From a bacterium TMED88 (GTDB taxonomy: Bacteria; Myxococcota_A; UBA9160; UBA4427): 50,964 nt of DNA. Positions 20,822 to 35,041 of this stretch are shown piece after piece. Position numbers and translations under genes: made by a program. Position 1 is the first letter of the stretch; the number at the start of each line of letters is the position of its first letter. The stretch is from NCBI GenBank assembly GCA_002171515.1, contig NHEP01000076.1, positions 1-50,964 of the forward strand, in the 5' to 3' direction. The notes below the pieces were generated by a model, which did no database searches, had not been told where the DNA came from, and was given only the letters and a program-made list of their open reading frames with translations.

Positions 20822-22903
20822 TCACCGAACCCAGTAGTCAGCAACCAAGTCCGAGGGTGTCGCCACACTGGTCAGCCAGAGCTGATGGATCGCGCGAGTA
20901 GCGCCCACGTGAAGAAGCCGCCGAGCAGCCGGGGTATCAGGAAAATGAGCCGCATCGACATCCACGAGAATAACGTAGTCAAACTCCAAACCCTTGACCT
21001 GGTTGATCTCGGTCACTTCCACGCCCGATGAAAAACTAAAATCTTGATCGACAACTCGCCGAATTCGCGGTAATTCGCAGCGCTCCAGACCCCCGAAATA
21101 AGTTTCACTGATCGAGGGCGCTGGGGTCAAGACCGCAACGGAGGCCTCGGGCTCCTGCCGCGCCAGATCCCGAAGCGCATCGGCCAAGAAGGCCACACAG
21201 GCACCGCGATCCGTAAAGCGGAAGAGTTCCACCGGCGGACCTTCCCGGGGCGTTTCCGGCGACTCTTCGTCTTCAACCAGTGAGCCGAGTACGGCCCGAG
21301 AGAAGTCGACAATGGGCCGCGTCGATCGATAGCTGATCCGGAGCGTATCAACCTCGGCACCCGCGATCCCCAGATGATGAAAAAACTCGCTCCAAGAGGT
21401 GAAGCCCGTGTTCTGAACCACGTGCTGCTGGGTGTCGCCCGCCAAGGTGATACTGGCCTCCCGCCCCATGCATCCCAACAGCACCTGAATCTCAGTCGGT
21501 GAAAAATCTTGGACCTCATCGACGACCAAGTGACGTAAACGAATGGGTCGCTTGCCGCCCGCTCGCAGATCCCCCACGCGCAACTGCCAAGCCCGGAGCA
21601 AAAGTGCGTCGTCCTCAGGATCCAATTCCGCCGGCGCTTCTTCATCGCCACCCAGCCATGCAAAAAGGACCTCGAGTTCCCGACGATGCCAGTCCGCAAA
21701 TCGCTTTAATTCGTCACGGGTGAAAGCACCGGGGGCGATCTCAGCAGTCATCTCTTCAAGAAGCTCCGCATCGCGCACCACCGCCGCCCAATCTTCGAAA
21801 GCGACCCGCCCTTTCCGGTCCCCGGGAACCTCTTTCGCACGTCGTTCAAGCGCTGCCTGACAGACCGGATGAAGCTTCACTCGCTGAATCAGAGCGGGTG
21901 TATCCTCTCGTTGTCGCGCCGGGAGGCTTGGAAAATGGCGCCCTCTCTGCTGCAAAGCCCATTCTCGATAGGTGACGATCTGGACCCGATCAAGTCCAAG
22001 GGAAGGGAGCACGTGTCCGACAAAGCGCTGAAGGGCTCGTGAGAAAACCACAACCGCGGTCTCTGGTCCATCAATCGCGGGGTCCGAGTAAGCGAGGTAC
22101 GCGACGCGGTGGAGCGCGACGGTGGTTTTCCCTGAACCCGCTACACCTCGAATCACCAGAAAGCCGGGACCGGAATGGGTGATCAACTCGAATTGACTGG
22201 GATCGATCAGCGCGGTGATTTCCGGGAGTCGCTTATCAGCCCGAAGGCCCTGCCCCCCATCCGCCGAGCCCATTCGACGCTCGTCTCCGTCACCCAGATC
22301 AAAAGCCCGAAGTGCCCGCCCTTCCCCCCCGGAAAGGCGCGGCGCACTGGCAGCGAGCTGGCGCCAGCCACCCTCGAGTTCAAGGGCAAAATCGCCTTCA
22401 GGCGCTTGAACCCGCTCGAGCAAGCCCGCCCGGATCCGGACCATTCTGCGAGCCAAGACTTCGCCCACCCTCTCCCGGCCCGCGATTTCCTCATCGTACT
22501 CTTCGCCCTGCCGGTACCCGTAGAAAATCTTGGAAATGGGGGCGTCTCGCCAATCCACGATCCTGAGTCCGCCGCGAACGCAGGTGGCTCGACCGAGGCA
22601 GAGATCCCGCTCCTTGCCGTCTTCCCCCAGCCGAAGGTGAGCAAAGTACGGGCACGACGGGTCGACCCGGGCCGCATTCTGACCACTGCGGAGTTGATTC
22701 AGAACCGCTGATTGATTGTGATACTGCTCACTCAGAGCCGAAATATCTTTGGCTTCGTCGCCGGACAAGATGACCGTTCGTAGTCGCTCCAGCTCACGAA
22801 CGATGGGCTCTTCCGAGGCGCTCCGGCTTTCAGGCAGTTCGCTCAAGAGCGCCACCACCTGCTCAAGCAGGTCTAATTCTTCGGAAACGACACGGTGGGC
22901 CAC
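20822..22903 (-). CDS. HelD-like superfamily 1 helicase / RNA polymerase-associated ATPase
   Basis: GTG 22903 has AAGGAG five bases upstream; 693 residues. The N-terminal part has the HelD pattern of a helical arm and a LRIVDWRDAPISKIFYGYR block (112-131) before the ATPase. Walker A is GVAGSGKTT (253-261), followed by VALHRVAYL; the Walker B-type DEVQD is at 462-466. Later helicase motifs include LAGDTQQHV, ISYRSTRPIVDFS, VTEINQVKGLEFDYVILVDVDA and LHVGATRAIHQLWL. HelD proteins of Gram-positive bacteria free stalled RNA polymerase; related proteins in other phyla are annotated as UvrD-like helicases, so the role here is inferred. It lies 161 nt downstream of the channel/rod operon on the same strand, a gap large enough for an independent promoter. 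Confidence 0.85.
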   Translation of the reverse strand: MAHRVVSEELDLLEQVVALLSELPESRSASEEPIVRELERLRTVILSGDEAKDISALSEQYHNQSAVLNQLRSGQNAARVDPSCPYFAHLRLGEDGKERDLCLGRATCVRGGLRIVDWRDAPISKIFYGYRQGEEYDEEIAGRERVGEVLARRMVRIRAGLLERVQAPEGDFALELEGGWRQLAASAPRLSGGEGRALRAFDLGDGDERRMGSADGGQGLRADKRLPEITALIDPSQFELITHSGPGFLVIRGVAGSGKTTVALHRVAYLAYSDPAIDGPETAVVVFSRALQRFVGHVLPSLGLDRVQIVTYREWALQQRGRHFPSLPARQREDTPALIQRVKLHPVCQAALERRAKEVPGDRKGRVAFEDWAAVVRDAELLEEMTAEIAPGAFTRDELKRFADWHRRELEVLFAWLGGDEEAPAELDPEDDALLLRAWQLRVGDLRAGGKRPIRLRHLVVDEVQDFSPTEIQVLLGCMGREASITLAGDTQQHVVQNTGFTSWSEFFHHLGIAGAEVDTLRISYRSTRPIVDFSRAVLGSLVEDEESPETPREGPPVELFRFTDRGACVAFLADALRDLARQEPEASVAVLTPAPSISETYFGGLERCELPRIRRVVDQDFSFSSGVEVTEINQVKGLEFDYVILVDVDAAHFPDTPAARRLLHVGATRAIHQLWLTSVATPSDLVADYWVR

Positions 22904-23064: not shown

Positions 23065-24078
23065 TCAGTCGAGCAGAATTCTCCGTTTGGACCGCCCGAC
23101 CAAATTGATCCCCACCTCCTCCGACTCATCGATGGCCAGCCAACTCACATCCCAGCCCAACTGTTCCGCTAAATAACGCGCCTCTAGGTAGGCCTCAAAA
23201 CTGTCGCTCCACGCGTAAAAACGGAGAAATCGACCGTCCCGGCCCAAGTCCGACAAGCCCTCGATAAAAGCCGAGTTAGGCTTCGAGAGCTCCAGAGCCG
23301 TTTCGCCGTAGCCCACATCCTCCCACTTGATGTCGGCAAAAAAAGCTCGGTCATCTTCGCGGAAAGCCCAGGAATAATTACCACTTCCCATCGTTTTCTT
23401 ACTAAACCAGTTGAGCAACCACGGGCGATCCTCGTAGGTGAATCCCCCGCCGGTTCCCAGCGCATTCTCGATGCCCAAACGCAGCATCGCCCGCATCCCG
23501 GAAAGGTCGAGCAAGGCACAGCGTCCGTAACGACACAGGACCGCCGACTCCTTGGCCCCCACCGGAGGGGTCCTGGGATTGGGCAGACGAGCCACTTTGG
23601 GTCGTGTTTCTTCCGGCACCGAGCCCATCAGGGCCTCGAGTCCCTGCACACGCTTTTGACGATTGGAAACCTCCGATGACAAACGGTCCCGCTCTCCCTG
23701 ATGCCGTAGGGTCTGCTGGGCGATCCGCTCTGGAACCACGTTCTCAATATCGAGGCGACCCGCCAGTTCTTCCAGTCGCTCCACATGAGGAAACAACTCT
23801 TCAACAAGAACACCCGAACGGGCCGCAGTCGTCGGATAGGCCTGCAGCTGCCCCCGGGCGGCCACAATCGCCGCCTCGATCTCCTCTGCCTCCTGAGCGC
23901 CTTGGGCCAGGGTCTCTGCGCTCACTGGTTCCGACGCGCGCCTCTCGCCAGTGATCCGCTCCACCGCGTCGCTTATGGAGAGCTGCGTCACGGCCACAAG
24001 GACCACCAAGATCCCCACGACATTCGACATTGTATCCAGCAACGAATCGAGGTTTTGGTCGGGCGAACGTGCAGCCAT
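23065..24078 (-). CDS. Single-pass ExbD/MotB-like rod protein B (retains membrane Asp)
   Basis: The 337-residue protein starts at an ATG that overlaps the previous stop by one base (TGATG). Residues 10-33 form one membrane span, LDSLLDTMSNVVGILVVLVA, with Asp15 placed as in ExbD (compare PMLDVVFIML of the ExbD in this window). Residues about 50-160 are helical and coiled-coil-like (QEAEEIEAAIVAARGQ, LSSEVSNRQKRVQGLEAL). A C-terminal domain from about 175 to the end has no named family I can give; it includes CRYGRCALLDL, DDRAFFADIKWEDVGYGE and RYLAEQLGWDVSWLAIDE. It should be an inner-membrane protein with a periplasmic part, driven by the MotA/TolQ-type channel encoded two genes upstream. 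It lacks an OmpA-type wall-binding domain, unlike MotB or ZorB. Confidence 0.75.
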   Translation of the reverse strand: MAARSPDQNLDSLLDTMSNVVGILVVLVAVTQLSISDAVERITGERRASEPVSAETLAQGAQEAEEIEAAIVAARGQLQAYPTTAARSGVLVEELFPHVERLEELAGRLDIENVVPERIAQQTLRHQGERDRLSSEVSNRQKRVQGLEALMGSVPEETRPKVARLPNPRTPPVGAKESAVLCRYGRCALLDLSGMRAMLRLGIENALGTGGGFTYEDRPWLLNWFSKKTMGSGNYSWAFREDDRAFFADIKWEDVGYGETALELSKPNSAFIEGLSDLGRDGRFLRFYAWSDSFEAYLEARYLAEQLGWDVSWLAIDESEEVGINLVGRSKRRILLD

Positions 24079-24881
24079 CAGAAAGGAGACGCTTTCGACA
24101 TTCGACTCAAATCGAGGGGACCACTTCCGGGCAGCGGCAGTTCAGCCAAACGAACGTTGTACCGCGTCGCGAGGGCCCGGGCTTTCTGGCACGTCTCGAC
24201 GCCCACGGGTCGAATCAAAAAGATAACCAGAGACCCCGGAATCGCACGGATATATCGGAAGACCCGCGGCAACATATTACCCTGCTGAATATCCTCCGCA
24301 GGAATCCTTCGACTTTGTCCATCCGCAGCGTCGTAATACTCGACGTAGTCCGCCCCACACTCGACCAAAAACGGTTGCCATTCTCGACCCACCCCGCTGG
24401 GTTCGATGATGATCGGAGCCGCTTCTCGGGTCTTCTTCTTCTTTTCGTATGCCTTTTCGCCCCGCTCGATCTGACTCGCCAAACCCGCACGGAGCGTCCG
24501 AAGCCGCTTGACCTCGGTCTCGAGCTGAACGGCCGCCTCCACTTGATTGATCAAGCCCGTGAGTTCTTCGAATGAAACCTCAGGGGCCAAGCCCAGCGCC
24601 GTCAACCGAAGCCCCAGTGCTTCGTTTTCTTCGGCTTTTTCTCTCTTGTCTCGGAGCTGCGCCTCCAACTCCTCAAGCTGCGCCTCTCCAGCAAGGATGA
24701 TTTCGCGTAAACGATCCATCTCTTCAACCATCGCAACCCACTCAAGGGACGGCCCACCCAGCCGACCGATCGCAATGGCGGCAAGCAATAGTGTGAGGGT
24801 GCCAATCACACAGGCCAACACACTGAGGAAAGGAAAGAGTGAAACGACCAAGTGCGTCTTCGCCCGGCGGCGCCGCGCCAT
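24078..24881 (-). CDS. Single-pass ExbD/MotB-like rod protein A (membrane Asp replaced by Ser)
   Basis: The 267-residue protein begins with a basic stretch MARRRRAK and one membrane span, VVSLFPFLSVLACVIGTLTL. Lined up with ExbD (LTPMLDVVF), Ser20 occupies the position of the proton-carrying Asp. Residues 50-155 form a charged coiled coil (EEMDRLREIILAGEAQLEEL, LRDKREKAEENEALGLR). The C-terminal domain contains PFLVECGADYVEYYDA and RAIPGSLVIFLIRPVGVET. It starts 3 nt after the channel gene stop and overlaps rod B by one base, so the three are made together. I know similar paired proteins from cultured and uncultured bacteria only as unnamed products next to MotA/TolQ channels. Confidence 0.75.
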   Translation of the reverse strand: MARRRRAKTHLVVSLFPFLSVLACVIGTLTLLLAAIAIGRLGGPSLEWVAMVEEMDRLREIILAGEAQLEELEAQLRDKREKAEENEALGLRLTALGLAPEVSFEELTGLINQVEAAVQLETEVKRLRTLRAGLASQIERGEKAYEKKKKTREAAPIIIEPSGVGREWQPFLVECGADYVEYYDAADGQSRRIPAEDIQQGNMLPRVFRYIRAIPGSLVIFLIRPVGVETCQKARALATRYNVRLAELPLPGSGPLDLSRMSKASPF

Positions 24882-24884
24882 GCG

Positions 24885-25952
24885 TCAGCCCGCTCCGTCA
24901 GAACGCCGGTCGATGGCGGCCAGCAGGCGGTCCGCCAGTCGATCGGCCACGCGCTCGACAAGAGCTTCCTGACCCTCCTGATCAACGGTGCCCTTTGACG
25001 ATTCAGCCAATCGGCCCACAAGCGTTTTTTGCACGACGTCATCCACCCTGACCAGCAGATCTTCCTCTGCCTTCTCCAAGGAGCTTGTCGGAAACATGAT
25101 AAAAATACTCATCACCAAAGCGAGAAGCGTTGTGTCAAAGGCCACCCCCAAGCCCGATGTCACTGAACCGATTGAATCCTTCATCACATCGAGATCTGCC
25201 GCCGCCGAGACCGACTCAGAAAAGCCACCGACCGCTTGCCCGATCCCAATCACGGTCCCAATAAAACCCAAAATCGGAATGGCCCAGATAAAAACCCGCA
25301 GCATCGTAAAACTCGACTCAACGAGAGCTTCCTCGCGATCGGCCTGCATCCGCAGGTGCTCAATCGTCTCGCCAACATCTCCCCGCAGCTGAAAGTGGTC
25401 GAGCCCCTCCCTCAGGCGTTCGACCAAAACACTCTGAACAAGGTCCTGCGGCAGAGTCCCGAGGTGGTCACTGAACCTCTTGGCATTGGGCACCGTGATC
25501 TGCTGGGCGATCGAAGTCGGCAGAAAGTCGATATCAAGAGACCGGGCCTGCAAACGGAGCGCTCGATACTTCCACCCCAGAACAACCGCCGACCAAATCG
25601 AGAGAAAGCTAATCACATACGGCACCCATCCCCGGGCCCCGAAGAGCGCTCCAAAAGTAGTCTCGGCCAACGGCCCCACCACCACGGCATAAAAAACAAC
25701 GGTCAGCAGCGCAGCCAGCAGACCGGTCCGACCCAGCGGGGCATCGACGCGTCGCCCAGCCCCACCGCTCACCGGCGCGACACCAGCCATTGGCATCGGT
25801 GCGTCCAAAACCTTCTGAGCCACGGGCTCCCCATCCTCGGCCGGGCGCAAGAAAGACTGCCCGCATGACGTGCAATCAACCACCTCACCCGGCTGGACTT
25901 TCAGACCCTCCAGCCTCGCCAGACAGATCGGACAGGAAATCGCTTCACTCAC
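24885..25952 (-). CDS. MotA/TolQ/ExbB-type proton channel with N-terminal zinc ribbon
   Basis: GTG 25952 is chosen as start: GAGGAG lies eight bases upstream, and it places a zinc-ribbon at the very N-terminus (CPIC at 7-10, CTSC at 27-30). The 355-residue product then has about four membrane spans: LLAALLTVVFYAVVVG, VISFLSIWSAVVLGW, the ExbB-signature helix FIWAIPILGFIGTVIGIGQA, and VTSGLGVAFDTTLLALVMSI. The last two match the TolQ/ExbB/MotA channel helices, including the Thr residues lining the proton path. A cytoplasmic loop lies between spans 2 and 3. It would form a pentamer around the rod proteins encoded downstream. The zinc ribbon is an unusual addition and could sense metal or bind a cytoplasmic partner. 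A PEGA-domain gene diverges 150 bp away. Confidence 0.85.
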   Translation of the reverse strand: MSEAISCPICLARLEGLKVQPGEVVDCTSCGQSFLRPAEDGEPVAQKVLDAPMPMAGVAPVSGGAGRRVDAPLGRTGLLAALLTVVFYAVVVGPLAETTFGALFGARGWVPYVISFLSIWSAVVLGWKYRALRLQARSLDIDFLPTSIAQQITVPNAKRFSDHLGTLPQDLVQSVLVERLREGLDHFQLRGDVGETIEHLRMQADREEALVESSFTMLRVFIWAIPILGFIGTVIGIGQAVGGFSESVSAAADLDVMKDSIGSVTSGLGVAFDTTLLALVMSIFIMFPTSSLEKAEEDLLVRVDDVVQKTLVGRLAESSKGTVDQEGQEALVERVADRLADRLLAAIDRRSDGAG

Positions 25953-26102
25953 CTCGAACACTCCTCGGCGAAACCCTTGCGCGTGCAGCCCCCTCGACCA
26001 GCGGCCCCACCCCGAGACCGGCATCGACCCGAGAGAGTAGGCCCTCCATGACTTCCGAGCATGCGGGGCCGCTGAAGGGCCCATGCCTGCTAGCCTCCCG
26101 GA

Positions 26103-27374
26103 ATGAGTGATGAAAACGGTGGCCCGGAGCCGAACGCCGCCTGCCTTTGGCTTGGCTTAAGCAACACGGCCTCCTCAGGCGAGTGCCTCGCCGCGTACTG
26201 GCGCTTAAGAAATCACCTCGAAGACCGGGCTCGCGAAGCTTCAACCTCTGAAGATCGCGTCCGGGCGAACGGACAGCTTCACAGACTCCACCGGGATTTT
26301 GTTGCGTTGGACCGGATCCAAGGCCCGCTTCGGCCGAATCCACCGAGCCCAGCCCCAGCCGTAGTTCGGTCCGGCGGAGCGGCTGGCTGGATCGTGGCGA
26401 CAGTCCTCGGGTCCCTTCTGATCGCGCTCGTTTGGATCGGATTGAGCGAGGACCGCGACCCACTCCCGGCCAGCCCGGGCGCTTTGGCTCAACTCACCCT
26501 CCAGGCTGATCCGGTCCAAGCCGAGCTCTGGGTGCGCACCAGCAAGGATGAGCGCGTGATTCTAACCGGGCCCGCCGATGGAACGCCCCAAAGCCTGCCC
26601 GCGGGCGGCTACTCAGTTGAAGTGATTCACCCAGATTGTCCCGACAGCTGGTCGGAAGACATTCGGCTCGAAGTCGGCGAGACGCGCCGCTATGCACCCA
26701 GGATCTGTCAAGGCGAGGGCCGGATTCAGGTCCGCTCCAATGTCAAGCAGGACCGCCTGATCGTAGACGGTCGAGACCTCGGCCTAACGGGAGAGACCCT
26801 CCATACGCTCCGGACCGGTGCGCATCATGTCCGGGTAGAGAAGTTGGGACACGTCGCCTGGGAGGGGGATGTCGTGCTCAAACCCGACCAGCAAATCGAA
26901 CTCTTTGCAGAACTTGCCAAAGCGCCTGCCCCCTCCCCTCCGCATTCTCCAACCCAATCCGCCAAGGCGGCCTCGGCGCCGCCCCCCACAGCGAAAAATC
27001 AGCCGGCGGGGGGCACCGCACCTCGCGCAGCGGGACGACTCAACGCACCCCGGCCCAGCACACCGGCGCCCCTTCGAACAGGAAAGGGAGGCTCGAAGTC
27101 TTGGCACGACGCAATCGTTGAAGACCTCGTCGGGCAGTACGACCAAAATGGATCGGGGACGCTCGACACCACTCAGGAAGTACAGGCTATCCCTTGCGCG
27201 AAATGGGTCGAGATCGAAAAGTCATATGAAACCGGAGGCCTCGCTGTCGAAATGACCCATCTGTACGGGTTCGACGGTTCGGACGCGCCAGCCAACACCC
27301 TTGGGATCGCCCCCACCGTTCGCTCATACGCCTATGACCGAATGAAAGGTTGCGGCCTGCGCGCGAGAAAGTAA
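26103..27374 (+). CDS. PEGA-domain membrane protein with EF-hand-like motif, divergent from the channel operon
   Basis: The 423-residue protein has an N-terminal helical region (LWLGLSNTASSGECLAAYWR to about 70) with a J-domain-like look but no HPD motif. One membrane span lies at about 94-114. Outside it come PEGA-like beta repeats, with ILTGPADGTPQSLPAGGYSV and LIVDGRDLGLTGETLHTLRT, then a Pro/Ala-rich linker (275-330). The C-terminal domain has an EF-hand-like loop DQNGSGTLDTTQE at 347-359 followed by VQAIPCAKW. PEGA domains are extracytoplasmic surface or scaffold modules. The gene shares a 150-bp intergenic region with the channel operon; an imperfect dyad (GCAT...GGG / CCCATGC) spans 26059-26086. 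The ribosome site is weak. A role as partner of the channel/rod complex is inference from position. Confidence 0.65.
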   Translation: MSDENGGPEPNAACLWLGLSNTASSGECLAAYWRLRNHLEDRAREASTSEDRVRANGQLHRLHRDFVALDRIQGPLRPNPPSPAPAVVRSGGAAGWIVATVLGSLLIALVWIGLSEDRDPLPASPGALAQLTLQADPVQAELWVRTSKDERVILTGPADGTPQSLPAGGYSVEVIHPDCPDSWSEDIRLEVGETRRYAPRICQGEGRIQVRSNVKQDRLIVDGRDLGLTGETLHTLRTGAHHVRVEKLGHVAWEGDVVLKPDQQIELFAELAKAPAPSPPHSPTQSAKAASAPPPTAKNQPAGGTAPRAAGRLNAPRPSTPAPLRTGKGGSKSWHDAIVEDLVGQYDQNGSGTLDTTQEVQAIPCAKWVEIEKSYETGGLAVEMTHLYGFDGSDAPANTLGIAPTVRSYAYDRMKGCGLRARK

Positions 27375-29590: not shown

Positions 29591-29903
29591 TCGCTTTCTC
29601 CTTGGTCAGGCGCATCCCGGTGATCACCTCCGGGCAACACCCTATCTTTCGGCAGCAATTCGCCGGAAGTTGACCCCTGATTTCCTCGGAACCAAAGTGT
29701 TCTGTTCAGCCAAAACAAGATGCACTCTCAGCGGAAATCGGATAATAAAGGGTCTGGGGAAAGCCTTCGTCCAATCACCTCGCCGTGTCCTGATGAGCGA
29801 GGTGGTTTCGGCCGTTGATCGACAGCGATCACAAATCGGCCGGGCTCGGGCCTCCGCCATCTTTGCTTGTGACCTCTTGCTCCACAGACCGAAAGGGAGT
29901 GAC
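29591..29903. promoter_or_regulatory. Divergent intergenic region with palindrome
   Basis: This 313-nt gap separates the minus-strand M41-like gene from the plus-strand TonB2 operon. It contains a perfect 10-bp palindrome, GGTGATCACC, at 29619-29628, 30 nt from the M41-like start and a candidate operator for it. No convincing Fur box is visible, although TonB systems are often iron-regulated. A frame open from 29670 continues into the DUF3450 gene, but its upstream part looks noncoding and lacks a ribosome site. Confidence 0.35.
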
Positions 29904-30701
29904 GTGCGAATCAGAAATCGGGTCCGCGGGCGGCTTTGGCGCCTCCGCTCCACCCTGCCCCTGCTCGGGGCCACAGTCGGATTGACTGGCCTCGCGTGGG
30001 CGGCTGACATCGAGACCGCGTTGGCGCTTGAAGAGAAAGCCAACTCAGAGTCGGTGCAATCTCAGAAGCGCATCAACCGAATCGATGACCAGACCGAGTC
30101 GATGGCCATGGAATATCGGGCCGTGATTGATCACATCCAATCTCTGCGGGTCTACAACGCGCAGCTCGAGAAGGTCGTTGGAACTCAACTCGAAGAGCTC
30201 GCCTCGCTGGAAGAACAAATCGGCAACGTCACGGAAATCGGCCGAGAAGTCATGCCGCTCATGATGCGGATGGTCGACACCTTGGATCAATTCGTCGAAG
30301 CCGACGTACCCATGCTCCTTGAGGAGAGACGTAAACGAGTCAATGATCTTCGTGAACTCTTGGTCCGTGCGGACGTCGAAAACTCCGAGAAGTACCGACG
30401 CATCATGGAGGCCTATCAGATTGAGAACGACTACGGCCGAACCATCGAGGTCTACCAAGACACGATTGACGTGGACGGAGAAGAACGCACCCTCGATTTC
30501 CTTCGCATCGGCCGAGTCGCCCTGATGTATCAAACTCCCGATGGCAGTGAGGTCGGAACCTGGGATCAAGAACAAGGGCGGTGGGTCGCCCTTCCCGATG
30601 GTTATCGCGACTCAATTCGTAAAGGAATTCGAATCGCCCGCAAGCAAGCTGCCCCCGACATGATTCGAGTGCCGGTCAGCGCTCCGAAGGAGTCGAACTG
30701 A
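29904..30701 (+). CDS. DUF3450 periplasmic protein of a TonB2-type operon
   Basis: GTG 29904 has AAGGGAG just upstream and yields 265 residues with a signal peptide (LLGATVGLTGLAWA before ADIETALALEE); longer frames to 29793 lose this. The mature protein is a long coiled coil (KRINRIDDQTESMAMEYRAV, LEKVVGTQLEELASLEEQIG) followed by a beta region with LDFLRIGRVALMYQTPDG and WVALPDGYRDSIRKGIRIA. These are features of DUF3450, a family found at the head of TtpC/ExbB/ExbD/TonB operons in Vibrio and Shewanella. It is periplasmic and is thought to join the energy-transduction complex; its exact job is not known. It overlaps the next gene by one base. Confidence 0.88.
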   Translation: MRIRNRVRGRLWRLRSTLPLLGATVGLTGLAWAADIETALALEEKANSESVQSQKRINRIDDQTESMAMEYRAVIDHIQSLRVYNAQLEKVVGTQLEELASLEEQIGNVTEIGREVMPLMMRMVDTLDQFVEADVPMLLEERRKRVNDLRELLVRADVENSEKYRRIMEAYQIENDYGRTIEVYQDTIDVDGEERTLDFLRIGRVALMYQTPDGSEVGTWDQEQGRWVALPDGYRDSIRKGIRIARKQAAPDMIRVPVSAPKESN

Positions 30702-32101
30702 TGAAACGCCTACTCAGCGCGGCCCTCTTTCTCATCGCGACCCTCTCGCTGCTTGCGGACACGACACCCGCACGGGCCCAAAACAGTGCTCCTGCGGAGA
30801 ACCCAACGATCGACCAACTCCTCGAACGCGTGCGCACCGGTTGGCGCGAAGAACGGCGCAATAATGAAAAACGCGAAGCCGATTTCCGCGCGGCGCGAGC
30901 TGATCAGAAAGAAACACTGCGCGCCGCCCAAGACACTCTGGCCGCAGAAGAAGCTCGAAGCGAACAGCTCGAGAAAAATTATGAAGAAAACGAACTGGCC
31001 TTAGCGGAGAGAGAAGAGCTGCTGGCTCAGCGCCTCGGAACCCTCGGCGAACTCTTCGGCGTGGTTCGCCAAGTGGCGGGGGACACCCGCAGTCAGGTCG
31101 AGAATTCAGTCATCAGTGCGGAGTTCCCCGGGCGCATCCCGTTCCTCGAAGAACTCGGACAGAGCAAAGCCCTTCCCTCCGTCGAAAAGCTCGAAGGCTT
31201 GTGGGCCACTCTTCTCCAGGAAATGGTCGAGTCGAGCAAGGTCTCACGATTTGATGCACAAGTGGACGCGGTCAGCGGCGAAGAAAGTACCCGAGAAGTC
31301 GTCCGGATCGGCGCCTTCAATGCCGTCGCCGACGGCGAATATCTCCGCTGGAAAGAGGACGTTCAGAAGCTCGGCGAAATTGGCCGTCAACCTGCACCGA
31401 AGTTCGTCAACACTGTCTCGGACCTTGAGCAGGCCCGCGGCGGCTTGGTCAAATTCGCGGTGGACCCGGCGCGGGGACAGATCCTTTCAATGCTGGTCTC
31501 AACCCCCACGCTCCGAGAGCGGATCGACTATGGCGGGACTGTGGGTTACGCAATCATCCTGCTCGGTTCGGCAACGCTGATTTTCGGCCTCTTTCGCCTC
31601 ATCTACGTGGGCGTCGTGAGCCGCAAAGTCGCGGCCCAGAAAAAGAACCCGGAGCCAAACGCTGGCAATCCACTTGGCCGAGTGCTTCAGGTCTACGCCG
31701 ATAACCGACAGATGGATACGGAGACCCTTGAGCTGAAGCTTGAGGAGCAAGTCCTCAAAGAAACAGCCAAGATCGAGAGCTTCTTGTGGCTCATCAAGGT
31801 TGTCTCGGCGGTCGCCCCGCTCATGGGCCTACTGGGTACGGTCACGGGCATGATCAACACATTCCAAATCATCACCCTGTTCGGCACCGGCGATCCGAAG
31901 ATGATGGCCAGTGGTATCTCCGAAGCCCTCGTCACGACGATGCTCGGCCTCCTGGCTGCCATTCCGTTACTGCTCTTACATAGCCTCTTGGCTAACTTGG
32001 CTCGCGGCGTCACGTCCGTTCTGGAAGAGCAGACAACCGGGCTGATTGCCGTCCAGTCTGAATCCGAGGGACTGGGCCGCCCAGGAGTGGACCGAGCCTG
32101 A
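30701..32101 (+). CDS. ttpC: TtpC-like MotA/TolQ/ExbB protein with long periplasmic domain
   Basis: The 466-residue protein has a signal-like N-terminus (MKRLLSAALFLIATLSLLAD), a long periplasmic coiled coil (30-130: DFRAARADQKETLRAAQDTL) and a domain with FPGRIPFLEELGQSKALPSV. From about residue 275 it has three membrane spans, with a signature ExbB region FLWLIKVVSAVAPLMGLLGT followed by VTGMINTFQIITLFGTGDPK and SGISEALVTTMLGLLAAIPL. That is the TtpC layout, a third channel-like subunit needed in TonB2 systems besides ExbB and ExbD. It starts on the last base of the DUF3450 stop. ExbB follows 40 nt later. Confidence 0.9.
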   Translation: MKRLLSAALFLIATLSLLADTTPARAQNSAPAENPTIDQLLERVRTGWREERRNNEKREADFRAARADQKETLRAAQDTLAAEEARSEQLEKNYEENELALAEREELLAQRLGTLGELFGVVRQVAGDTRSQVENSVISAEFPGRIPFLEELGQSKALPSVEKLEGLWATLLQEMVESSKVSRFDAQVDAVSGEESTREVVRIGAFNAVADGEYLRWKEDVQKLGEIGRQPAPKFVNTVSDLEQARGGLVKFAVDPARGQILSMLVSTPTLRERIDYGGTVGYAIILLGSATLIFGLFRLIYVGVVSRKVAAQKKNPEPNAGNPLGRVLQVYADNRQMDTETLELKLEEQVLKETAKIESFLWLIKVVSAVAPLMGLLGTVTGMINTFQIITLFGTGDPKMMASGISEALVTTMLGLLAAIPLLLLHSLLANLARGVTSVLEEQTTGLIAVQSESEGLGRPGVDRA

Positions 32102-32141
32102 TGAGCGGGCAAGAGTTATCCATCACAGGAGGAGTCGGAGG

Positions 32142-32657
32142 ATGACCCTCTGGTTCGAGGCGGTCGGAGACTTCATGAATCGAGGCGGAGACGTCCTCCT
32201 CCTCATATTCATTGTCACCCTGGCCATGTGGACACTGATCATTGAGCGTCAGTGGTATTTCCGAATCGTGTTTCCGCGAGAAGCCTCGTCCGTCCTCAAA
32301 AAGTGGCATGCCCGCGACGACCAAACTTCATGGCGAGCCCACCAGATCCGGGACCTATGGATTTCAGAAACCTCGATTAACTTGAATCGATCCATTTCGA
32401 TGATCAACACTCTGGTGGCCCTGTGCCCTTTGCTGGGCTTATTGGGGACAGTCACTGGAATGATCGAAGTTTTCGACGTCATGGCTGCGGCGGGCAACAG
32501 CAATGCCCGGGCTATGGCGACCGGCGTGTCCAAAGCCACCATCCCCACCATGGCGGGAATGGTGGTCGCCATCTCGGGACTGTATTTCTCAGTCCAGATT
32601 CAACGTTTCGCCAAGACGGAAAGCGAGCGCCTCGGCGACCGCATGACCCACGACTAA
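32142..32657 (+). CDS. exbB: ExbB-type proton channel subunit
   Basis: ATG 32142 follows AGGAGGAGTCGGAGG, a strong ribosome site, giving 171 residues. The N-terminal span (DVLLLIFIVTLAMWTLIIE) is followed by a short cytoplasmic loop and the two channel helices: NTLVALCPLLGLLGTVTGMI and GVSKATIPTMAGMVVAISGL. Conserved Thr residues and the PLLGLLGTVTGM signature show a functional proton channel. It would make the pentamer that surrounds an ExbD dimer and drives TonB. It lies between ttpC and exbD in one operon. Confidence 0.92.
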   Translation: MTLWFEAVGDFMNRGGDVLLLIFIVTLAMWTLIIERQWYFRIVFPREASSVLKKWHARDDQTSWRAHQIRDLWISETSINLNRSISMINTLVALCPLLGLLGTVTGMIEVFDVMAAAGNSNARAMATGVSKATIPTMAGMVVAISGLYFSVQIQRFAKTESERLGDRMTHD

Positions 32658-32696
32658 GCGGGACCCTGTCTCCCAACAAGGAAGGCCATCTCTGCC

Positions 32697-33104
32697 ATGC
32701 GAAGGAAACGCAACAAAGAGGAAGATGAGGCGGAAGTCAATCTGACGCCCATGCTCGACGTGGTCTTCATCATGCTCATCTTCTTCATCGTCACGGCCTC
32801 TTTCGTGAAGGAGTCCGGAATCGACATCAACCGACCCGATGCAGCCACCGCGACCGTCAAAGAGCGAGGCAATATCCTTGTGGCCATCACGGAGGGCAAT
32901 CAGGTCTGGATCGATCGGCGACAAGTTGACATTCGTTCGGTTCGAGCCAACATCGAGCGACTGCACGCTGAAAATCCGCAGGGGGCCGTGGTGATTCAGG
33001 CGGACAAAAACTCCAAGAACGGATTGCTTGTCCAAGTCATGGATGCCGCACGACAAGCGGGTGTCTTTAATGTTTCCATCGCGGCCAATGAGGTTTCCGA
33101 CTAA
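32697..33104 (+). CDS. exbD: ExbD-type subunit
   Basis: The 135-residue protein has a charged cytoplasmic N-terminus, one membrane span with the proton-carrying Asp21 in NLTPMLDVVFIMLIFFIV, and a periplasmic domain ending GLLVQVMDAARQAGVFNVSI. This is a canonical ExbD. The start follows AAGGAAGG. It would sit in the pore of the ExbB pentamer. It gives a useful in-window reference for the two unusual rod proteins at 23065-24881, whose spans align with it. Confidence 0.93.
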   Translation: MRRKRNKEEDEAEVNLTPMLDVVFIMLIFFIVTASFVKESGIDINRPDAATATVKERGNILVAITEGNQVWIDRRQVDIRSVRANIERLHAENPQGAVVIQADKNSKNGLLVQVMDAARQAGVFNVSIAANEVSD

Positions 33105-33110
33105 GCCATC

Positions 33111-33731
33111 ATGCAATGGGTTCGGATCGGGGTCGCGGCGCTTGTCGCCATCGGAATTACCTTCGGGCTTTTCTTCTTTATGCAATTCCTCATCTCCATG
33201 AGTGAGGAACGCGGGGCTGAGTCCAGCAAGGGCCCAGTCATCGAGTTTGTCCGCCTCAAGCGCGATTCTGAACTTCAAACCCGCAAGCGCGAAATGCCGA
33301 AAAAAGAAAAGCCGCCCGAGCCACCTCCGCCCCCGGATTTACAGATGTCGCAAAGCGACGCGCCCTCGGCGGACACTTTGGCCATCGCGGCCCCGGCGAT
33401 TGACGTCAACCCGGACCTCACAGGAGGGCTCAACATCGGGTCGGGGTCCGGTGATTCTGACAGCGTTCCGATTGTCCGTGTTCCACCTCAGTACCCGATG
33501 AGAGCCGCGGAACGGGGCATCGAGGGCTGGGTTCTGCTTGAGTTCACGATCACGGCCAGTGGAACCGTTCGCGACCCTGTTGTGCTCGATGCAAATCCGC
33601 CTCGCATTTTCGATCGCGCTGCCAAGCGGGCCATCAAGAAGTGGAAATACCGCCCTCGGATTGTGGACGGCGTAGCGATCGAGCGTGTCGAACGAAATAA
33701 ACTGACTTTCAAGCTGGACCAAAGCACGTAA
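33111..33731 (+). CDS. tonB: TonB-type energy transducer
   Basis: The 206-residue protein has one N-terminal span (GVAALVAIGITFGLFFFMQF), a short Lys/Pro-rich spacer (KPPEPPPPPD) and a C-terminal TonB domain from about 120: VRVPPQYPMRAAERGIEGWV, LEFTITASGTVRDPVVLDA, and RAAKRAIKKWKYRPRI. The spacer is much shorter than in E. coli TonB, as is usual for the TonB2 type. The DUF3450/TtpC proteins are presumed to make up for this. It starts 6 nt after exbD. No TonB-dependent receptor is encoded in the window, so the transported substrate is unknown. Confidence 0.92.
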   Translation: MQWVRIGVAALVAIGITFGLFFFMQFLISMSEERGAESSKGPVIEFVRLKRDSELQTRKREMPKKEKPPEPPPPPDLQMSQSDAPSADTLAIAAPAIDVNPDLTGGLNIGSGSGDSDSVPIVRVPPQYPMRAAERGIEGWVLLEFTITASGTVRDPVVLDANPPRIFDRAAKRAIKKWKYRPRIVDGVAIERVERNKLTFKLDQST

Positions 33732-33784
33732 TCCCGCTGATTTCATCGACAATCAATCTCACTTTGACCGAAAGGAGGACCCCG

Positions 33785-35041
33785 ATGCGACAACCTTTGC
33801 GTTTCAATCGAATCGCTTCGCTCCTTCTCGCCGTGGCACTCGCTTCACTACTGAGCGCTGGAGCCCTTGCTGCCGAAAAGAAAAAGAGCAGCAAGAAAAA
33901 TTTTATTCCCAGCGAAAGTGTCGGGAAGCGACTCCTAAGAGTCTCCGAGTTCGCCGAGGAAGAGCAGTTCGCTGAAGCCGAATCGTACTTAGAACCCTTG
34001 ACGCAAAAAAAACGACTTAAGAAGTATGATCGGGCTCTTGTTTTTCAGACTTATGGCCTGATGCTCGCGGCTCAAGAGAAATACAAACCCGCAACGGAAG
34101 CCCTCGAGACCTCGCTTGCCGTTGATTATCTCCCTGACTCATCCATGCAGGCGCTCCGTTACAACCTGGCGCAGCTCCATATGGCCAGCGAGAATTTTCC
34201 CCGCTCCATCGAGTTGCTCAACATTTGGATGGACAACGAAGAAGACCCCAACGCCCAATCCGAATTCCTTCTTTCGGCGGCGTACGCCCAAACCGACGCA
34301 TGGGACAAAGCCCTGCCCCATGCGCGAAAGGCCGTAAGCAAGTCCACCAAACCCGTGGAGCAACGGCTCGGGCTTTTGCTCGCTGTGGAATTTCAAAACG
34401 GAAATCTCCTTGAGTCGCTGGATACCCTCAAGCTTTTAGCCACCCATTTCCCAAAGAAACGGTATTTGGTTCAACTGGCTGCCGCCTACTCGGGCCTGGA
34501 GCAAGAAGACAACGCTTTGGCCACCCTTGAGATCGCCGACCTCGAAGGCTGGCTTGATCGAGAGACCGAAATCATCCAGCTCACGCAACGGTATCTCTAC
34601 GCCGAACTCCCGTGGCAAGCGGCCCAAGCGCTCCAACGAGGCATAGACCGAGAAATCGTTGAAGCCAACGCCGACAACCTCGAGCTTCTTGCGAATGCAT
34701 TACTGAGTGCCCGCGAGTACGATGCTGCCTTAGCGCCCCTCACCCGAGCAGCCGAGCTATCTGAAAACGGCAACCTGTTTGTGAGACTGGGTCAGGTGCA
34801 CCTGCAGGTCGAAAACTGGCCCCAAGCAAGAAAGGCCCTTTCCGCAGCCATTGAGAAGGGAGACCTCAAGCAGCCCGGGAATGCCAGCCTGCTTCTCGGC
34901 ATTACAAACTTCAACGAGAAACGCTTGAAGTCCGCACGATCGGCCTTTCGAGCCGCTCTTCAGGAGGAAGAGACCGAGCGCAGTGCTCGCCAATGGCTCC
35001 AGCATGTGGATCGGGCAGAGCGCGAAAGAGCTCAGCTCTAG
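33785..35041 (+). CDS. TPR-repeat periplasmic protein of the TonB2-type operon
   Basis: ATG 33785 follows AAAGGAGG and gives 418 residues with a signal peptide (LLLAVALASLLSAGALAAEK). The mature protein consists of tetratricopeptide-like helical repeats from about 60 to 410: VFQTYGLMLAAQEKYKPATE, ELLANALLSAREYDAALAPL, LGQVHLQVENWPQARKALSA, LLLGITNFNEKRLKSARSAF. A TPR protein closes TonB2 operons in Vibrio and relatives, where it takes part in the transport complex. It follows tonB by 53 nt. It is likely to act as a periplasmic scaffold; partners here are not visible. Confidence 0.88.
   Translation: MRQPLRFNRIASLLLAVALASLLSAGALAAEKKKSSKKNFIPSESVGKRLLRVSEFAEEEQFAEAESYLEPLTQKKRLKKYDRALVFQTYGLMLAAQEKYKPATEALETSLAVDYLPDSSMQALRYNLAQLHMASENFPRSIELLNIWMDNEEDPNAQSEFLLSAAYAQTDAWDKALPHARKAVSKSTKPVEQRLGLLLAVEFQNGNLLESLDTLKLLATHFPKKRYLVQLAAAYSGLEQEDNALATLEIADLEGWLDRETEIIQLTQRYLYAELPWQAAQALQRGIDREIVEANADNLELLANALLSAREYDAALAPLTRAAELSENGNLFVRLGQVHLQVENWPQARKALSAAIEKGDLKQPGNASLLLGITNFNEKRLKSARSAFRAALQEEETERSARQWLQHVDRAERERAQL

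Follow-up and report, generated by a model that had tools for sequence, protein, structure and literature searches.

Does a Tol/Ton-like channel that is encoded together with two different rod proteins, only one of which carries a membrane aspartate, build a motor with unlike rods? The question is raised by three genes on the reverse strand of contig NHEP01000076.1 from bacterium TMED88, within the 50,964-nucleotide stretch analysed here (the window). On balance, the cassette appears to specify an ion-driven motor of the cell envelope, of the MotA/TolQ/ExbB kind, whose channel ring would surround a single copy of each rod, with a membrane Asp in rod B only; judged from sequence, it is probably a heteromeric Tol/Ton-like motor of 5:1:1 make-up. 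This proposal is built on four observations, namely a conserved three-gene unit, paralogous rods, their acid pattern and their matched linker lengths; the accompanying TolR-like folds are predicted. The features concerned are as follows.

24885..25952, reverse strand: channel subunit, 355 residues from the GTG at 25952, with a MotA/TolQ/ExbB domain and four membrane helices by eye
25863..25934, reverse strand: channel zinc-ribbon motif (C7, C10, C27 and C30), its four Cys kept in all ungapped alignment rows
25134..25136, reverse strand: channel D273 in AFDTT, adjoining the conserved Thr pair
24078..24881, reverse strand: rod A, 267 residues, with the acid-free membrane helix SLFPFLSVLACVIG, a long helical linker and a predicted TolR-like periplasmic domain (about 158-251)
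24822..24824, reverse strand: rod A S20, at the ExbD/TolR Asp position by profile-profile alignment
23065..24078, reverse strand: rod B, 337 residues, with the membrane helix LDSLLDTMSNVVGIL, a helical linker and a predicted TolR-like periplasmic domain with an insertion (about 155-317)
24034..24036, reverse strand: rod B D15, the putative proton site, Asp in 80/80 named loci
24046..24048, reverse strand: rod B D11, a second near-invariant acid one turn from D15, in 79/80 named loci

The tight linkage of these genes, claimed in a first-pass annotation of the window, is borne out: 3 bases separate the channel gene from rod A, and the TGA of rod A overlaps the ATG of rod B (TGATG). The channel has an alternative, longer ATG start at 26084. 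Its description as a zinc-ribbon TolQ/ExbB-like protein agrees with a PF01618 match of 44.3 bits (cut-off 22.9; scanned from the longer start) and with Cys 7, 10, 27 and 30, which are kept in all ungapped alignment rows (70, 70, 72 and 72). The conserved motifs of the channel are GFIGT (T233) and AFDTT (271-275), and the solved chain closest to it by sequence is the MotA/TolQ/ExbB-domain protein 8vvn (E 0.0042), which we take to be ZorA. The cassette has the marks of the broad class of MotA/TolQ/ExbB ion-driven motors, namely a PF01618 channel, a single-pass rod with a mid-membrane Asp (rod B, but not rod A) and a predicted TolR/ExbD-like periplasmic rod fold.

Neither rod matched a Pfam family above its cut-off. 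Even at E <= 10, PF02472 (ExbD/TolR) and the OmpA model gave no match to either window rod, the latter in keeping with the earlier remark that both lack an OmpA wall-binding domain, and the Pfam scan found no MotB plug in them; the ExbD encoded in the window at 32697 scored 116 bits against PF02472 in the same scan. PF02472 was also absent among the best 25 of 105 families for 34 rod A relatives and the best 25 of 53 for 31 rod B relatives. PDB sequence searches with the rod profiles returned mostly coiled coils (among the best 60 of 134 and the best 60 of 268 matches), together with one MotB chain, 6ykr, at noise level (E 0.92). TolR is the best alignment for the predicted periplasmic domains of both rods.

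Comparison of the rod profiles with hhalign (E 1.8e-15, 98.5%) indicates that rods A and B are paralogous. The alignment pairs B-D15 with A-S20 and B-G22 with A-G27, and thus reproduces the by-eye alignment of the first-pass annotation, whose residue numbering (ExbD D21, rod B D15, rod A S20) is correct. Among the candidates scored, 268 relatives of rod A and 122 of rod B were found at E <= 1e-3 (120 listed for each), so the observation is not a matter of chance.

The three genes make up a conserved unit. A rod B profile scan of one-per-species genomes gave at least 120 relatives, the best 80 of which are the named loci; these are mostly from Myxococcota/Deltaproteobacteria, Planctomycetota and Verrucomicrobiota, with a few assigned otherwise. 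The three genes stand in the order channel, rod A, rod B on one strand in 67/80. Both rods occur without a detectable channel in another five: a contig start truncates L022, L065 and L067, while in L046 and L085 the upstream DNA is present and the channel is not there. The expectation that the rod genes would always be found together held as co-occurrence with few exceptions, but not as adjacency: rod B stands alone in 8/80 loci (L076 at a contig start, L019 near one), although seven of these eight genomes, all but that of L076, hold rod A elsewhere. The displaced rod A adjoins a channel gene in the genomes of L028, L030, L031, L032, L035 and L039. Ten genomes were searched from the 13 incomplete loci: all ten have rod B and a strong match to the channel (E < 1e-100), and nine have rod A. 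In 292 Planctomycetota genomes, with up to 8 rod A and 6 rod B candidates scored per genome, matches below 1e-30 to the two rods fell in the same 20 genomes, seven of which hold them at separate positions. A set of 97 relatives includes 28 with a rod B match below 1e-40, and rod A accompanies it in 27/28; rod B of the remaining genome (G076) lies at a contig end, as does a short rod B piece in G056. Rod A was found below 1e-40 in 15/208 Myxococcota genomes, 14 of them within the window's own family, and in 6/213 genomes of the phylum of L019.

Retention of both rods where the genes are split speaks against an alternative in which the channel pairs with two copies of rod B, as an ordinary 5:2 motor, and separately with two copies of rod A, as an acid-free inactive or regulatory stator. 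We consider this arrangement unlikely, although its precedent is clear, as the solved 5:2 motors have two identical rods.

The acid pattern bears on the same point. Of 72 named loci with rod A, 67 have Ser at position 20 (67/69 readable), two have Asp (L043 and L080) and three are truncated, and in rod B D15 is Asp in 80/80 and D11 in 79/80, with Gly in L041. Of the rod A sequences listed as related to that of the window, 118/120 have Ser and two lack the N-terminus; for rod B, 117 of the 120 listed have both D11 and D15 and three lack the N-terminus. The Asp of the L080 rod A is found in 120/120 listed relatives (313 found), which indicates a property of the whole lineage and not a sequencing slip. 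The membrane face of rod A (L15, F16, P17, F18, I26, G27 and L29) is kept in 78/78 sequences, 76 of them acid-free. A rod A homodimer from an acid-free cassette would hold no rod acid at all, and conservation of this face is not readily reconciled with separate A-A and B-B stators.

Weaker matches led to further three-gene cassettes, and 59 of 72 channel-bearing loci could be read by the two-rod pattern. The states of rod A and rod B in these 59 are Asp/Asp (D/D) in 23, Ala/Asp in 16, Ser/Asp in 15, Cys/Asp in three, Thr/Asp in one and Asp/Gly in one (L168), and at least one rod has Asp at the site in every case. The 59 cassettes are no test of D11, because the rod B pattern demanded an acid there (an exception was written in for L180). 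Within the window's branch the Asp is kept by rod B alone, in line with the first-pass annotation, but the Asp/Ser pattern is not universal; a strict rule is broken by L043, L080, L180 and the D/D cassettes. The D/D cassettes also lend something to the homodimer alternative, since either homodimer would contain an acid in these 23.

The pattern did not read 13 of the 72 loci (L131, L136, L140, L153, L160, L171, L172, L173, L176, L181, L188, L191 and L193). By eye, L140 is D/D and L173 is Asn/Asp (rod A/rod B); in L181 rod A carries Asp and no rod B was seen. L191 and L193 encode a channel and two rods with helices of the form SF[ILM]DC[IL]CCGFGA and, by eye, Asp on both; they seem to be a separate family. 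L192 has no channel. The asymmetry is reversed in L168 (G673:C181, one draft genome), where rod A has Asp (FFQD) and rod B reads LDLLLGP, with Gly at the Asp position.

Rod A differs between types of cassette. It mostly reads FxFQD in the D/D type; in type 2 (L121-L126, L134, L135, L137, L149-L151 and L154-L158; Planctomycetota) it has the membrane motif FPFLA (FPFL[AT]) and is long, with stop-to-stop open reading frames of 557-1125 residues (502 in L153, at a contig end). The zinc-ribbon motif was found in 62/67 and 14/15 type 1 channels, 0/24 FxFQD-type channels and 0/16 type 2 channels. The length of type 2 rod A could reflect a position outside the pore, where rod A would pass on force from a B-B motor much as TolA or TonB does; acid-free single-pass partners beside the channel are the rule for TonB at ExbBD and TolA at TolQR. 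This is improbable, however, as the two rods are paralogues, the periplasmic domain of rod A is predicted to be TolR-like, and the D/D-type relatives of rod A carry Asp exactly at the pore position.

The channel residue at the place of D273 varies among other cassettes (D, N, E, V or I), which bears on a third alternative, that the acid of rod A has moved to the channel, so that two kinds of acid site remain and the motor is not truly one-sited. AFDTT is invariant in 75/75 aligned type 1 channels and is found in every acid-free cassette with the channel motif read except two, while the four channels read with V or I there pair with an Asp-bearing rod A. Set against this, L147 and L148 combine Ser in rod A with Asn in the channel, and most D/D channels have Glu (15) or Asp (3) at the place, so we give such a transfer little credence. 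A strict swap of the acid from rod A to the channel was rejected on the AFNTT of L147 and L148 and the AFETT of 15 D/D cassettes. With Asp in rod B, L147 and L148 are poorer in acids at the three sites under comparison than the other cassettes for which the channel motif was read.

How the asymmetry arose was examined with a maximum likelihood tree of 94 channel sequences, with three ExbB/TtpC-like sequences from the window's own genome as the root (L158 was left out as a fragment). The basal grade consists of 25 loci whose rod A bears Asp: 23 D/D cassettes, the D/G locus L168, and L181, with rod B unread. Backbone ultrafast bootstrap values are 62-98. All acid-free rod A cassettes in the tree fall in one weakly supported clade (support 53), inside which L080, L043 and L180 are nested. 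The simplest reading of the rooted tree would be one loss of the rod A acid followed by three returns, multiple losses being the alternative. Given the basal grade with Asp on both rods and the single acid-free clade, the two-rod stator probably came first and the acid was then lost from one rod. Two findings that the first-pass annotation had named as refuting its idea thus do occur, namely rod A with a membrane Asp and, formally, loci with a lone rod gene. They argue for rod A occupying a rod position that was once acid-bearing, which refines the heteromer idea and does not remove it.

Two rods that end at the same level should have matched linkers. Counted from the Gly of the membrane helix up to where the periplasmic domain begins, the linkers in the 70 loci that have both span 135-156 residues in rod A (median 146) and 126-157 in rod B (median 145.5), and their lengths are correlated (raw Spearman 0.71). 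In phylogenetic contrasts (66 loci, 65 contrasts; four of the 70 left out), linker A against linker B gave r of 0.50 with the channel tree and 0.54 with a joint tree, the strongest of all pairs and as expected of such rods; equal and covarying linkers also count against separate homodimers. The controls, however, are not zero. The channel tail gave raw values of 0.71 and 0.61 against the two rod linkers, and its contrasts were 0.38 and 0.41 with the A linker and 0.25 and 0.29 with the B linker (channel and joint tree, respectively). The A domain gave -0.33 and -0.32 with the A linker and -0.30 and -0.29 with the B linker, and the B domain -0.14 and -0.11 with the A linker and near zero with the B linker.

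The asymmetry of the rods is read directly from the sequences, and from it we infer how a mixed stator may work. The channel would be a pentamer. Inside the ring would sit one A and one B helix, a ratio suggested by the overlap of the rod B start with the rod A stop. Ions would enter to B-D15 and the ring would turn against the rods; B-D11, one helical turn towards the N-terminus, may hand the proton on, and rod A could provide a neutral bearing face, with S20 replacing the acid. Another candidate is the Asp of the channel motif AFDTT, although L147 and L148 have Asn there. Mostly helical linkers of ~140 residues would carry the rod pair into the periplasm, where its two TolR-like domains would act. 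In the published two-site model, as set out in the available part of PMC9389320, one proton turns the ring by 36 degrees by swapping the protonated site. If the rods offer a single proton site (D15, perhaps together with D11) and not two that alternate, equivalent positions would lie 72 degrees apart instead of 36, and about 5 protons would be needed per turn instead of 10. More tentatively, we propose an obligate heteromeric stator of one protonatable and one acid-free rod, derived from a D/D motor after one acid loss; it would be a natural single-site 5:1:1 machine moving one proton per 72 degrees, with D11 and D15 stacked, and D/D, S/D, A/D, T/D, C/D and, in one case, D/G would be its living states. 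A motor with a single rod acid would separate the parts of the cycle that need two sites from the rest, and the D/D and S/D relatives are ready comparison pairs. No report of the cassette or of an acid-free second rod was found in the literature searched, whose coverage mostly excluded subscription papers.

The nearest precedent is AglRQS, the gliding motor of Myxococcus xanthus, which the first-pass annotation overlooked where it described the known complexes as having identical rods. Like the cassette, it has one MotA/TolQ-type channel and two non-identical TolR-like rods encoded together (PMC3169522, available part). The two systems differ in that AglQ and AglS are both listed under PF02472 (PMC3169522) and both have a predicted Asp (PMC9389320), according to the parts of these papers available, whereas both window rods lack a PF02472 match and rod A has S20. 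Whether AglR holds a hetero- or a homodimer of AglQ and AglS is described as not yet known in the accessible parts of PMC9389320, PMC9120999 and PMC3169522. This leaves some room for homodimers in the cassette as well, and the question of a channel shared by two different rods, raised for AglQ/AglS in what is available of PMC9389320, becomes testable here.

The remaining motors are more distant. The cassette shares with TolQ-TolR and ExbB-ExbD, whose rods are identical, a PF01618 channel, one-helix rods, a predicted TolR/ExbD-like periplasmic fold and the Asp position kept in rod B, but has longer rods, the zinc ribbon and a second rod paralogue. With the MotAB flagellar stator it has in common a MotA_ExbB channel and an Asp-bearing rod; it differs in its two different rods, which match neither the MotB plug nor OmpA. 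In the NCBIfam and PADLOC libraries the channel was matched best by ZorA models (ZorAB, Zorya), all weakly, with 24.3 bits against a ZorA cut-off of 100. Unlike ZorAB, the window rods have no OmpA match, and the 28 relatives having rod B each gave a single strong rod B match. A role as a defence system was rejected on the low ZorA score and on the absence of rod B matches in plasmid and phage collections.

Two neighbours recur in type 1 Myxococcota-like loci. Downstream of rod B (20822-22903) lies a HelD-like UvrD-family ATPase gene (HelD_BACSU 153.9 bits, cut-off 419; PDB 6wvk, E 1.9e-38). Twelve loci have a gene of this family downstream of rod B (L009, L011-L018, L050, L054 and L064; 1.9 kb off in L017); these loci are labelled Myxococcota, Myxococcales or Deltaproteobacteria apart from L015 (Spirochaeta). 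Upstream of the channel (26103-27374), a divergent gene encodes a PEGA domain (40 bits), with similar divergent genes in loci such as L011, L012, L017, L050 and L054. An assignment of function from these neighbours was rejected: the blast clustering of neighbours was polluted by antisense open reading frames, and for this reason an apparent 29-locus cluster of genes like 26103-27374 was not counted. The window also holds a second, ordinary Ton-type cluster (29670-35041), comprising DUF3450, a large MotA_ExbB protein, ExbB, ExbD and then, by eye, TonB-like and repeat-protein genes, which is presumably a TtpC/TonB2-type system.
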